Below, piece by piece: positions 54,760 through 58,244 of a stretch of DNA of 64,000 nt (positions are counted from its first letter, which is position 1; every line of letters starts with the position of its first letter). The notes under the pieces are model-generated. The model ran no database searches. It was not told the origin of the DNA and worked only from the letters and a program-made list of their open reading frames with translations. Position numbers and translations under genes: made by a program. Origin of the DNA: Ohtaekwangia koreensis (lineage in GTDB: Bacteria; Bacteroidota; Bacteroidia; Cytophagales; Cyclobacteriaceae); assembly GCF_900167975.1 (NCBI RefSeq), contig NZ_FUZU01000003.1, positions 1 to 64,000 of the forward strand, in the 5' to 3' direction.

Positions 54760-55114
54760 CACGGTTTATGGTTATAGAAGACACCGTGCACTCCGTGTCT
54801 TTATACAACGTCTCCCCTAGAGCATACAGCGCGTCAGCATAAGAGTATGTACTTTATTTCATATGTCATTGTATGTGTATTTACCTTGCGCGTCAATTAC
54901 CGTGCTTTGGTATCTTTAATCAAGTCAGGTTAAGTATATCCACAATCTATTCAAAGATAATTCGCTGCATATATAGATTGAATTTCGACATGTCATGAGT
55001 CCGCTGTGTTATCATTGAGTAAAGAAATTTTCATGGATAATAGTAGGAAAATATAGCCACCGATGTTCTTATATTTGGGCAATTGTCTCAATACCAAAGA
55101 CTCGATTATTAAAA
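54760..55114. other. Intergenic region before the SPFH operon
   Basis: A small stem AGACAC/GTGTCT (54779-54800) and an overlapping GCACGGT/ACCGTGC pair follow the T9SS gene and could act as a weak terminator. A candidate -7 element for the SPFH operon lies at 55070. No gene is seen. Confidence 0.4.
55070..55077 (+). promoter_or_regulatory. Candidate -7 promoter element of the SPFH operon
   Basis: TATATTTG matches the Bacteroidota TANNTTTG element 37 bases before the ATG at 55115. A clean TTTG at the -33 position is not evident. Confidence 0.4.
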
Positions 55115-56059
55115 ATGAATATGAATTCACCATTTATTGAAATAATAGAAGCTACCACACCAGATCCAAATCTTTTGATGTGGAAATTTGCAGATGAAGA
55201 TAAAGAAATTAAGAATGGAGCAAAGCTTACTGTTCGAGAATCTCAGATAGCTGTTTTTCTAAATGAAGGTAAACTCGCAGATGTTTTTCAGCCGGGGCTT
55301 CATACGTTAAGCACTGAGAACATTCCTGTCATAACTCGTTTGAAAGGTTGGAAATATGGATTCAGCAGTCCGTTTAAAGCAGATGTATATTTTGTAAATA
55401 CCCGGCAGTTTGTTAACAACAAATGGGGCACACCTGCACCCATTATGATGAGAGACCCGGAGTTTGGTCAAGTTAGGGTTCGTGCCTTCGGTACATTTGA
55501 TATTCAAGTAAAAGACCTTGCTATATTCTTTCGTCAATATGCAGGTTCATACCAGACCTTTAATATTTTCGAATTGCAACATGAACTTCGGGATTTTATT
55601 GCACCAAAATTCGGAGAGGTGCTCGCGCAGCAAAATATATCCGTTAAAGATATAGCAGGAAGTGTGACAGAATTGGGTAAGAAAATAGAACCATTTCTAA
55701 AACCATATTTCGCTCAATTCGGAATTGAGTTGATTTCATTTACCATCACAAGTGTTACACTACCCGATGAAGTTTCAGCTCACTATGACAAGATAACCAA
55801 TATGAATATGGTATCCGACATGGACAAGTTTACCAAATTCAATACTGCGCAAGCTATAGGTGAGAAGGGAACTGCTTTAAATGAAGCCACTACCAATGCT
55901 ATGGCCATGGGAATGATGATGAATAAAATGCAACACGTTAATCAACCTCCGGACGACATTACCGCCAAACTACAAAAATTAAAAACGCTTTTTGAATCTG
56001 GCTTGATAGACGAAGCAGAGTATAAAGCAAAAAAAGCAGACCTGATTGATAAACTATAA
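55115..56059 (+). CDS. SPFH-domain protein with C-terminal SHOCT motif (YdjI-like)
   Basis: 314 residues. The SPFH (virion-core-protein-like) region covers about 20-240: TVRESQIAVFLNEGKLADVF, PGLHTLSTENIPVITRLKGW, VRVRAFGTFDIQVKDLAIFF, LISFTITSVTLPDEVS. The helical C-terminus then leads to a SHOCT motif (ITAKLQKLKTLFESGLIDEA and EYKAKKADLIDKL). No transmembrane helix is seen, so it is probably a membrane-peripheral scaffold. In Bacillus the homologue YdjI works with zinc-ribbon and PspA proteins in envelope stress (established knowledge). Here it heads a tight four-gene unit. Confidence 0.9.
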   Translation: MNMNSPFIEIIEATTPDPNLLMWKFADEDKEIKNGAKLTVRESQIAVFLNEGKLADVFQPGLHTLSTENIPVITRLKGWKYGFSSPFKADVYFVNTRQFVNNKWGTPAPIMMRDPEFGQVRVRAFGTFDIQVKDLAIFFRQYAGSYQTFNIFELQHELRDFIAPKFGEVLAQQNISVKDIAGSVTELGKKIEPFLKPYFAQFGIELISFTITSVTLPDEVSAHYDKITNMNMVSDMDKFTKFNTAQAIGEKGTALNEATTNAMAMGMMMNKMQHVNQPPDDITAKLQKLKTLFESGLIDEAEYKAKKADLIDKL

Positions 56060-56067
56060 AAACTGAG

Positions 56068-56319
56068 ATGGAAGAAAATAAAAAAACTCTTTCACTGCTG
56101 GAACGAATGAAACAAAAGGCCGTGGAGCAGAAATCGTATGGAGGAGAATTTACTGAAGAACCTGCAAAAGTGAATGCAAGGACCTGCCAGAATTGTGGCG
56201 CGGGAAGATCTCAACAAGATGGACTGACACATTGTGCTTACTGTGGATTTGAATTTCTATCGGTAAAGCTTACCGATGGCATCAACATCAAAAAAGAAGA
56301 TAATACTCAAAACATTTAA
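56068..56319 (+). CDS. Small zinc-ribbon protein
   Basis: 83 residues. A Lys/Glu-rich helical N-terminus (LSLLERMKQKAVEQKS) precedes one rubredoxin-like zinc ribbon: Cys40-x2-Cys43 and Cys56-x2-Cys59 (CQNCGAGRSQQDGLTHCAYC). It lies 8 bases after the SPFH gene and 3 bases before the next. Likely a zinc-binding partner or adaptor of the operon. No family name known to me. Confidence 0.85.
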   Translation: MEENKKTLSLLERMKQKAVEQKSYGGEFTEEPAKVNARTCQNCGAGRSQQDGLTHCAYCGFEFLSVKLTDGINIKKEDNTQNI

Positions 56320-56322
56320 ACT

Positions 56323-57249
56323 GTGTCAGTATTTTTTAATAACGAATTTGAAAACAGCCGACTACCAGTTGTAAAAAAAGAAATGCAAGAGACCAAAGAA
56401 CGTTTCTTTGCATTCATCGGCAAATTGGAAGATAAACTAAGAGAATTCACAGCTGCATCTATTCCTGAACTGGTAGCACTGAATGATACTGATACAGATC
56501 AATTCAAGCGGGGGTATCACAGAATGAAATCTGCAGTGCTAGGACAACTGGACAGCATTCAAAAAAAAGCGCTCGATGTCAAAGAAGAAAAAATCACTTG
56601 CTTCCCGTTCCCAAATGACGATCATGAAATTTCAAAGATATACCACCAGTTTAGAAATGAATGTTACGATCGCTTTTTTCAGTTAGACGAATTATATAGC
56701 AAATGCCGTGAGCAAGTAGAGAGTACTCACCAGGAAGACTTTGAATCCAAGTATCAAAAAATTCTAGATGAGTATGAAACTCTCAAGGATAAGTTTCGCT
56801 GTGAGCAATGTGGAAGTCCCGTGACCATTGATAAAATATATTTTACAACAACCTATATTACCTGCCCCTCCTGCCAAACACGAAATACTTTTGAACCGAG
56901 CTCGCAAGCCAAGATGCTGGAGCATATTGGAAGAAGCCTCGCCGAACAACGAACAAGTCATCTTCTCAAAGAGCATGATGAAATTCCTCAAAAAACTCAA
57001 ACCCTATACCTGCAACGACATGAGATTGAATTGAGCCTCATTCACGAAAGTGATAAAAGGATCATCGAACAAAAGAGAGCACAGATGCAGGAGATGGAAA
57101 AACAGAAGCTCGAACTTGAAAGTAAACGTCCGGCTTTATACCAAACGTATTTACGGGCAATGTTTGATGAATGGAATAAAATTAATCCAGCGTTGGCTGA
57201 TGAACACGAAAAATTTTACAACCGATTACTAAACGATTATCATAAATAA
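56323..57249 (+). CDS. Coiled-coil zinc-ribbon protein of unknown function
   Basis: 308 residues from a GTG start 3 bases after the previous gene. It has a long helical, probably coiled-coil N-terminal half (about 10-155), then one zinc ribbon (Cys160-x2-Cys163 and Cys181-x2-Cys184: CEQCGSPVTIDKIYF and CPSC). A second charged coiled-coil follows (about 200-275, KRIIEQKRAQMQEMEKQKLE), then a conserved-looking end NPALADEHEKFYNRLL. No signal peptide or membrane helix. The layout of coil, ribbon, coil suggests a structural or adaptor role with the SPFH scaffold. Family not recognised. Confidence 0.85.
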   Translation: MSVFFNNEFENSRLPVVKKEMQETKERFFAFIGKLEDKLREFTAASIPELVALNDTDTDQFKRGYHRMKSAVLGQLDSIQKKALDVKEEKITCFPFPNDDHEISKIYHQFRNECYDRFFQLDELYSKCREQVESTHQEDFESKYQKILDEYETLKDKFRCEQCGSPVTIDKIYFTTTYITCPSCQTRNTFEPSSQAKMLEHIGRSLAEQRTSHLLKEHDEIPQKTQTLYLQRHEIELSLIHESDKRIIEQKRAQMQEMEKQKLELESKRPALYQTYLRAMFDEWNKINPALADEHEKFYNRLLNDYHK

Positions 57250-57263
57250 ATTAAAATTCAATT

Positions 57264-57842
57264 ATGAGTAATTCTCTATTAGAACCCGTTCACGGAGTAT
57301 CATTGTACGACTATGCAGCCGCGGCCGCAAAAATGGCTACGGGCATTGATCAAAAAGAAATTTGTAAAACATTAGGAATCGAACTTGCTGTATTTGAAGA
57401 GGCATCTGCCTTGTGGGTGGCGCGAATGCAAGAAGACAGTACCTTCGAAGTATCTATACTTTTCGGACAATACTTTGGTGAAGCTGATAAGCATCCAAAA
57501 CTAAGCGGACTTCAAGCTCAGGTGAGTGAAGAAGGAAAAGTCAATCTAGAGAAAATTAAAACCGACCGATATTTTTATGAAGAGTTGAACGGTGCCCGAC
57601 AAGCTGCCTATGATTATGGCTATGATGGCGCGCAATGGATACAAGATAACTTTGGAATTTCGCTTGGCGATTTTCAATCCGTAGCAATGAAATGGTCAGA
57701 AGTACAAAATGAAGAAGTGAGAAATAACAACACCGATAATGTTCATCATTTCATTGATTATCAGCAAAAGAAACAAGAGGAGTATGCTGCAAAATTCGCC
57801 TCTGAACAAGGAGGCAATGTTGCTGATGATGTAGAATTCTAA
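57264..57842 (+). CDS. Conserved-looking unknown protein closing the SPFH operon (DUF6620-like?)
   Basis: 192 residues, soluble and acidic. Two similar helical modules are apparent: VSLYDYAAAAAKMATGID with ALWVARMQEDSTFEVSILFG, then DRYFYEELNGARQAAYDYG with KWSEVQNEEVRNN. It ends in an acidic tail (VADDVEF). I recall a DUF6620 family of this size, but am not certain this belongs to it. It is 14 bases after the coiled-coil gene and 66 bases before the terminator, so it is the last gene of the transcript. Confidence 0.8.
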   Translation: MSNSLLEPVHGVSLYDYAAAAAKMATGIDQKEICKTLGIELAVFEEASALWVARMQEDSTFEVSILFGQYFGEADKHPKLSGLQAQVSEEGKVNLEKIKTDRYFYEELNGARQAAYDYGYDGAQWIQDNFGISLGDFQSVAMKWSEVQNEEVRNNNTDNVHHFIDYQQKKQEEYAAKFASEQGGNVADDVEF

Positions 57843-58244
57843 ACGCGCTATACTCCTATAGTTATATCGGGGCTTCCGGGCTATAAACATGTTAACCCTC
57901 ACAATTTTGAGGACGATGAAAATCGTCCTCTTTTTTTTACTTTACAAAAAGATTCCGTTCGAATCACCTTCTAACTGCCCAGGAAGTAAAAGGACTTGAA
58001 TACGTTGATATATACTATATAGCCATTATGTCTACAATAGAAGTACCCGTGCAATCAGTCAAAGTCAAAGCCAAATCGAAATTGATTCATTCGTTACAGG
58101 CAATCACGCATTCGCTTCCGACCAACCATGACTCAATATCGGACAGCCAATATTTGCTCATCATCAAAATCACGTCAAATAGCCTGCTTTTTTCTGGCAA
58201 GCAATTGGAATGTATACCAGCACTAAACAATCCGGAACCTATAT
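57843..58244. other. Intergenic region between the SPFH operon and the ABC permease
   Basis: It contains the SPFH operon terminator. The remaining ~300 bases before the permease start hold a plus-strand frame from 58028 that runs into the permease gene in another frame and is not convincing. The promoter of the permease should be here. Confidence 0.4.
57909..57938 (+). terminator. Strong rho-independent terminator of the SPFH operon
   Basis: Perfect 9-bp arms GAGGACGAT and ATCGTCCTC with the tetraloop GAAA, followed directly by T8. One of the clearest terminators in the window. Confidence 0.92.

Follow-up and report, generated by a model that had tools for sequence, protein, structure and literature searches.

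SPFH proteins are widespread, and we know of no partners for most of the prokaryotic families. The locus described here raises the question of how a protein of this type may act when it is encoded in a compact unit, with neither PspA nor a membrane partner in the operon. The unit lies within a window of 64,000 nucleotides (the whole stretch of DNA analysed) from Ohtaekwangia koreensis, and consists of four genes, the features of which are listed in Table 1. The open reading frames, the perfect terminator, and the intergenic gaps of 8, 3, and 14 nt between genes 1 to 4, as given in a preliminary description of the sequence, were all confirmed from the coordinates, the stem, and the run of eight thymines. 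Estimates of dN/dS range from 0.00 to 0.06 in comparison with one related locus (L008), and from 0.04 to 0.11 with another (L032), which indicates that each of the four is subject to purifying selection.

Table 1. Features of the four-gene unit and its flanking signals, in positions of the window.
Feature	Position	Strand	Remarks
Probable promoter: conserved block AAAATATAGCCACCGATGTTCTTATATTTG, with the candidate -7 element TATATTTG (55070-55077) at its end	55048..55077	+	
Gene 1: SPFH (Band_7_1) protein with C-terminal SHOCT	55115..56059	+	314 aa; Pfam, tree, hydropathy
Gene 2: N-terminal helix-like stretch and single four-Cys zinc ribbon (CxNCGAxR...CxYCGFxF)	56068..56319	+	83 aa
Gene 3: helical protein with central four-Cys ribbon, GTG start	56323..57249	+	308 aa
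Gene 4: all-helical protein, equivalent to the C-terminal part of Pfam DUF6620	57264..57842	+	192 aa
C-terminal tip of gene 4, ADDVEF	57822..57839	+	Alignment, 31 complete members
Intrinsic terminator, 9-bp stem, 4-nt loop, then T8	57909..57930	+	

The use of gene 3 as a query against the genomes of 84,980 species recovered 25 loci, in which the order and orientation of genes 1 to 4 are identical, with two incomplete copies, one on a contig that begins after gene 1 (L013) and the other with a truncated gene 4 (L023). A single foreign gene is inserted between genes 1 and 2 in one locus (L012). Where a locus had no annotation, its genes were predicted by simply taking the longest ORF. When 396 Bacteroidota genomes were sampled evenly (other phyla were reached through plasmid and phage records), genes 3 and 4 marked the same ten genomes, all of which also encode a Band_7_1 SPFH protein, compared with 55 of the 396 overall (Fisher's test, 1.3e-9 by genome, and 1.7e-5 with each genus counted once). 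The retention of gene order across the loci and this co-occurrence across genomes bear out the proposal that the four genes form a single conserved unit.

The preliminary description had looked to partners scattered without the SPFH gene as a sign against the unit, and a mild form of this is seen in three of the ten genomes (G272, G281, and G307), where the SPFH gene lies apart from genes 2 to 4, but Band_7_1 SPFH is still encoded. In G272 and G307, it adjoins zinc-ribbon membrane proteins. The variant in these two genomes begins with a two-helix membrane protein, which we take from a reading of its sequence to be DUF3592-like, followed by two copies of gene 4, a gene 2 of increased size, and gene 3. 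In G281, a likewise enlarged gene 2 stands between gene 4 and gene 3, in that order. In G305, genes 2, 3, and 4 are followed by a YcxB-like two-helix protein, which overlaps gene 4 by 11 nt, and then by the SPFH gene. The core of the distant variants is formed by genes 2 to 4.

The pairwise distances among proteins 1 to 4 correlate at 0.88-0.96 across 27 cassettes, a correlation that derives partly from common descent or block transfer, and that supports joint inheritance rather than contact. In the SPFH tree, Pedobacter helvus is placed beside Terrimonas, Fluviicola, and Flavobacterium, apart from the other Pedobacter, and Pedobacter sp. V48 is paired with Chitinophaga tropicalis (100/98). 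Given these misplaced Pedobacter, the unit seems to be transferred horizontally as a block, and the four genes appear to be an accessory unit that moves in this way among the Bacteroidota. In four loci of Pedobacter and Mucilaginibacter (L026, L027, L030, and L023), gene 1 is preceded at a distance of 31-67 nt by a same-strand gene for a TPR-repeat protein, possibly an optional fifth gene; apart from this, the flanks of the loci contain no recurrent family other than common SusC-like and similar genes.

Gene 1 matches Band_7_1 (PF13421, E 9e-79) and SHOCT (PF09851, E 1.1e-7), in agreement with its initial reading as an SPFH protein with a SHOCT tail. Elsewhere, the Band_7_1 SPFH genes mostly adjoin a gene for a protein that has two ribbons at its N-terminus and a single membrane helix at its C-terminus, as in L110, L112-L115, L045-L047, and L050 (Bacteroidota, Proteobacteria, and Actinobacteria), a partner that is absent beside gene 1 of the window. 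The SPFH proteins of 20 cassettes form a single clade (100/100) on a long branch nested among the SPFH proteins of these pairs, with that of G305 lying outside the clade. On this topology, the cassette SPFH evidently descends from the widespread SPFH/TFIIB-type zinc-ribbon membrane pair (found in Vibrio, Comamonas, Paracoccus, Tsukamurella, and many Bacteroidota), the SPFH gene of which is of clear common descent with its own. Unlike the pair, the cassette has genes 2 to 4 in place of the membrane-anchored two-ribbon partner, and its SPFH protein lacks the amphipathic-looking N-terminal stretch (MGLFDFF.., MSLWKSI..) of its relatives. Many of the gene 3 proteins and long gene 4 proteins begin with MFGLF or MFKKLFG, and contact with the membrane may have shifted from the SPFH protein and its anchored partner to genes 3 and 4.

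Some relatives of gene 1 have distinctive neighbors. An ankyrin-repeat protein with a C-terminal SHOCT (L031:7440-8765) is encoded 37 nt upstream of the SPFH-SHOCT gene of its locus, and TRAFs-binding, TIR, coiled-coil, and WD40-like proteins (L045:688-5084) are divergent from an adjoining Vibrio SPFH/zinc-ribbon pair. A TelA-type toxic anion resistance protein and a DUF2927 protein (L047:3701-8419) lie directly upstream of a pair of this type in Paracoccus.

Genes 2 and 3 fall below every cut-off in Pfam, and each encodes a protein with one four-Cys ribbon, as originally described. The cysteines of the gene 3 ribbon (C160, C163, C181, and C184) are invariant in 32 sequences, and the AlphaFold model (pLDDT 91) consists of long helices around the ribbon, while a helical insert near the C-terminus is missing in around half of the family. 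A comparison of this model with the PDB returned no significant match, the best being with F-BAR proteins and designed bundles. Weak profile matches of gene 3 to Cas10/Cmr2 and of gene 2 to Cas12f, all below the cut-offs, were rejected as coiled-coil and ribbon similarity.

Gene 4 was initially left as an unknown protein, which no longer holds for its family. It matches DUF6620 (PF20325) at 1.4e-14, with 54 bits against a curated cut-off of 27, over positions 271-450 of the 450 of the profile, and thus corresponds to the C-terminal 40% of the full Pfam family, reaching its last position, with the N-terminal part absent. No mention of DUF6620 was found in the literature searched, and no copy of it was found on plasmids; the unit provides this family with a defined gene context. 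The AlphaFold model of gene 4 is all-helical (pLDDT 90), and a Foldseek search of the PDB and viral structures found nothing significant, the HTH-like fragments having E-values of approximately 1 or worse. As neither this model nor that of gene 3 matches a solved fold with confidence, no activity can be read from the predicted structures.

The preliminary description also overlooked the C-terminal tip of gene 4, which provides an easy six-residue handle on how the parts connect. The identity of the body of the protein falls to 24-29% among members, and the tip follows the pattern (D/S)D[VIL]xF or GD[I]xF in each of the 31 complete sequences aligned, a D or S nearly always preceding the D[VIL]xF, with Asp-189 and the terminal Phe-192 being invariant. 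All 31 have features resembling the acidic C-terminal tip of SSB, that is, a C-terminal acidic residue, an aliphatic residue two before the end, and a terminal Phe, while the residue preceding this Phe is E, D, N, Q, T, V, or K, and never proline. The SSB tip likewise combines an acidic run, an aliphatic residue two before the end, and an obligatory C-terminal Phe, but gene 4 lacks its proline, and is a DUF6620 protein rather than an OB-fold. An acidic end of this kind is found among approximately 650 other genes of the loci only in SSB itself (STDDLPF) and in one caspase-like protein (SDDLPF).

On a plasmid of Actinomyces oris, a distant homologue of gene 3 (tblastn 7e-6, profile probability 97.6%) is followed by an annotated low-complexity protein of 163 residues that ends in DIASDIEF. 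A further profile score was set aside as not independent, its profile having probably been built with the Actinomyces protein included. A search within this plasmid found no Band_7_1 gene, so this one case, while not proof, points to the tip as a functional linear motif tied to gene 3 rather than to SPFH. A broader version of this idea, which we consider rather unlikely, is a new linear-motif system in which the ending (D/S)D[VIL]xF is shared by DUF6620 and by low-complexity proteins unrelated to it, and gene 3 is the dedicated reader of the tip. Such a system would operate alongside SPFH scaffolds in the Bacteroidota, and without an adjacent one in the Actinobacteria, and might compete with, or imitate, the SSB tip.

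The closest known system for comparison is PspA-YdjGHI (ydjFGHI) of Bacillus subtilis, in which YdjI requires the membrane proteins YdjG and YdjH, localizes PspA, and fluidizes the membrane (PMC8581546). Band-7 proteins are repeatedly found together with PspA, and a role as assembly chaperones for complexes beneath the membrane has been proposed for them (PMC11237479). In the single reported test, SHOCT did not serve as an oligomerization domain (PMC3581485). In both B. subtilis and the cassette, an SPFH protein of the Band_7_1 type (PF13421 matches in B. subtilis too) is encoded with zinc-ribbon proteins, and a membrane scaffold is the proposed role. The cassette differs in its lack of PspA, either in the operon or in the 7.24-Mb genome, where PF04012 has no match, and in its lack of a membrane partner such as YdjG or YdjH, given that hydropathy predicts no membrane helix in any of the four proteins; the preliminary description had noted both absences for the unit, and both are upheld. 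The cassette ribbons are separate soluble proteins, DUF6620 is added, and the SPFH protein has a SHOCT tail where the YdjGHI type has a C-terminal ribbon. The original analogy with YdjI is sound insofar as the cassette SPFH is nested among pairs laid out like YdjG/YdjI, but falls short in the missing membrane-integral partner. As a whole, the earlier interpretation is partly supported.

Our preferred reading, which we hold tentatively and at somewhat less than even probability, is that the unit encodes a PspA-independent SPFH scaffold complex, held together in part by the gene 4 tip, that acts in envelope stress or in the assembly of membrane proteins. Gene 1 would be a YdjI-type SPFH protein that, judging from its family, oligomerizes to form a scaffold on the inside of the cytoplasmic membrane, and the ancestral partner, with two ribbons and one membrane helix, would have been replaced by the soluble products of genes 2 to 4. 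Gene 2 would be a small ribbon adaptor for the SPFH protein, and the acidic tip of gene 4 would dock on a partner, most likely the ribbon/helix protein encoded by gene 3. Under envelope stress, and in the absence of PspA, the complex may support the membrane, or the assembly or quality control of proteins close to it. The gain of two-membrane-helix proteins in the divergent variants (YcxB in G305, and the DUF3592-like protein in G272 and G307) argues for a membrane scaffold. The points against this reading are the separation of genes 2 to 4 from SPFH in G272, G281, and G307, the Actinomyces plasmid that has no Band_7_1 gene, and the outcome of the SHOCT test. We infer the physical complex, the docking of the tip, the attachment to the membrane, and the stress role, the last of these from the family and from the patchy distribution of an accessory unit.

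A number of other explanations draw on the same observations. The preliminary description placed gene 3 in the structural position of PspA, and a system of the YdjI/PspA type with PspA directly replaced by gene 3 as a membrane-remodeling polymer would fit both the lack of PspA in the genome and the predicted long helices of gene 3, the weak top fold matches of which include F-BAR and CdvB proteins. All of these matches have E-values of 0.17 or worse and poor TM-scores, however, and the C-terminal helical insert is not a constant part of the family. PspA/ESCRT-III proteins are not known to have a central zinc ribbon, which also counts against this substitution, and we regard it as very improbable. 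A mimicry of the SSB tip, through which gene 4 would bind repair or replication proteins that interact with SSB, and the module would link a membrane-side SPFH scaffold to genome maintenance, is unlikely, if less so. Gene 4 tips such as ADDVEF, ADDIEF, HDDIKF, NSDIDF, and HSDLEF resemble the STDDLPF end of SSB in the same genome, as well as the MDFDDDIPF end of Escherichia coli SSB (PMC7913777), and both the rarity of the DDLPF-type end among the other genes and the HTH-trihelix-like, though insignificant, resemblance of the DUF6620 units would agree with mimicry. The consistent lack of the proline speaks against it, as does the failure to find any repair gene beside the cassette, and the pairing in Actinomyces fits docking onto gene 3 equally well. 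The ribbons and HTH-like units might instead act directly on DNA or RNA, with SPFH serving only as a scaffold, and nucleic-acid binding has been suggested for SHOCT (PMC3581485), but the HTH matches in question have E-values of 2.7 or worse, and in the related pairs the ribbons are carried by membrane proteins. We consider a transcription or nucleic-acid module very unlikely.

The patchy distribution of the unit and its transfer as a block are also features that might be expected of an anti-phage or conflict module, a role suggested in the preliminary description, and isolated neighbors include a caspase-like protein in L057, an eCIS-core protein in L025, and, in L059, genes of a possible immunity type, including DUF2625. 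We consider this role quite improbable, given that the flanks are not conserved from locus to locus, the PADLOC matches are merely scattered among 119 flanking genes, the viral contigs contain no relatives of DUF6620 or gene 3, and no effector enzyme is recognizable. The SPFH gene has only weak, partial matches in phage sequences. Neither a phage response nor an association with defense islands finds support in these data, and the tentative scaffold reading is retained.

The caspase-domain protein (PF00656; L057:5019-6428), which has the SSB-like end ESDDLPF, adjoins the cassette in only one genome when three from a single genus are compared. The caspase-like neighbor in G021 was rejected as a fifth part of the unit, being absent from the stretches of G206 and G344, where the cassette is near the same dihydrolipoyl-dehydrogenase-like gene. 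In Chitinophaga niastensis, a single protein that combines eCIS-core, LysM, and amidase domains (L025:6108-8501) is encoded directly upstream of the cassette.

The expression signals of the unit are the final aspect of its layout. The candidate -7 element of the preliminary description is present and lies inside a conserved upstream block, but the motif alone is not above chance, with TANNTTTG occurring 54 times within the window versus 59 in shuffles. A block of approximately 30 nt, AAAATATAGnCAnnGATGTTCTTATATTTG, is kept in front of gene 1 in three loci from related genomes (L008, L009, and L032), and is conserved despite synonymous divergence from the window of approximately 0.2-0.3 (L008) and 0.6-1.2 (L032). 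No obvious copy of the -33 TTTG is seen before the candidate -7 element, and the block is probably the promoter.

The 26-nt core of this block, TATAGnCAnnGATGTTCTTATATTTG (window 55052-55077), recurs with up to three mismatches at four intergenic places elsewhere in the genome, whereas the reversed pattern has no recurrence under the same limit, and no Rfam match was found for the core. These four recurrences (G000, C3:606791, C5:1108469, C6:457922, and C2:201233) lie 35-84 nt before ORFs. A regulon defined by the core, considered over about five other intergenic places, was rejected, as the genes downstream of the recurrences share no common function and several of the similarities extend into a longer repeat. 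The recurring core may represent a promoter family, a repeat, or an element of a cassette array. Several of its copies belong to a longer repeat (..GTTTACAAACG..TATAGG..GAATGTTG). A region of the same genome (G000:C6:456500-468500, L135) contains small, unrelated genes, mostly on one strand, together with what appears to be a REP-associated transposase and with several families of repeats, and resembles a cassette-like or REP-rich array.
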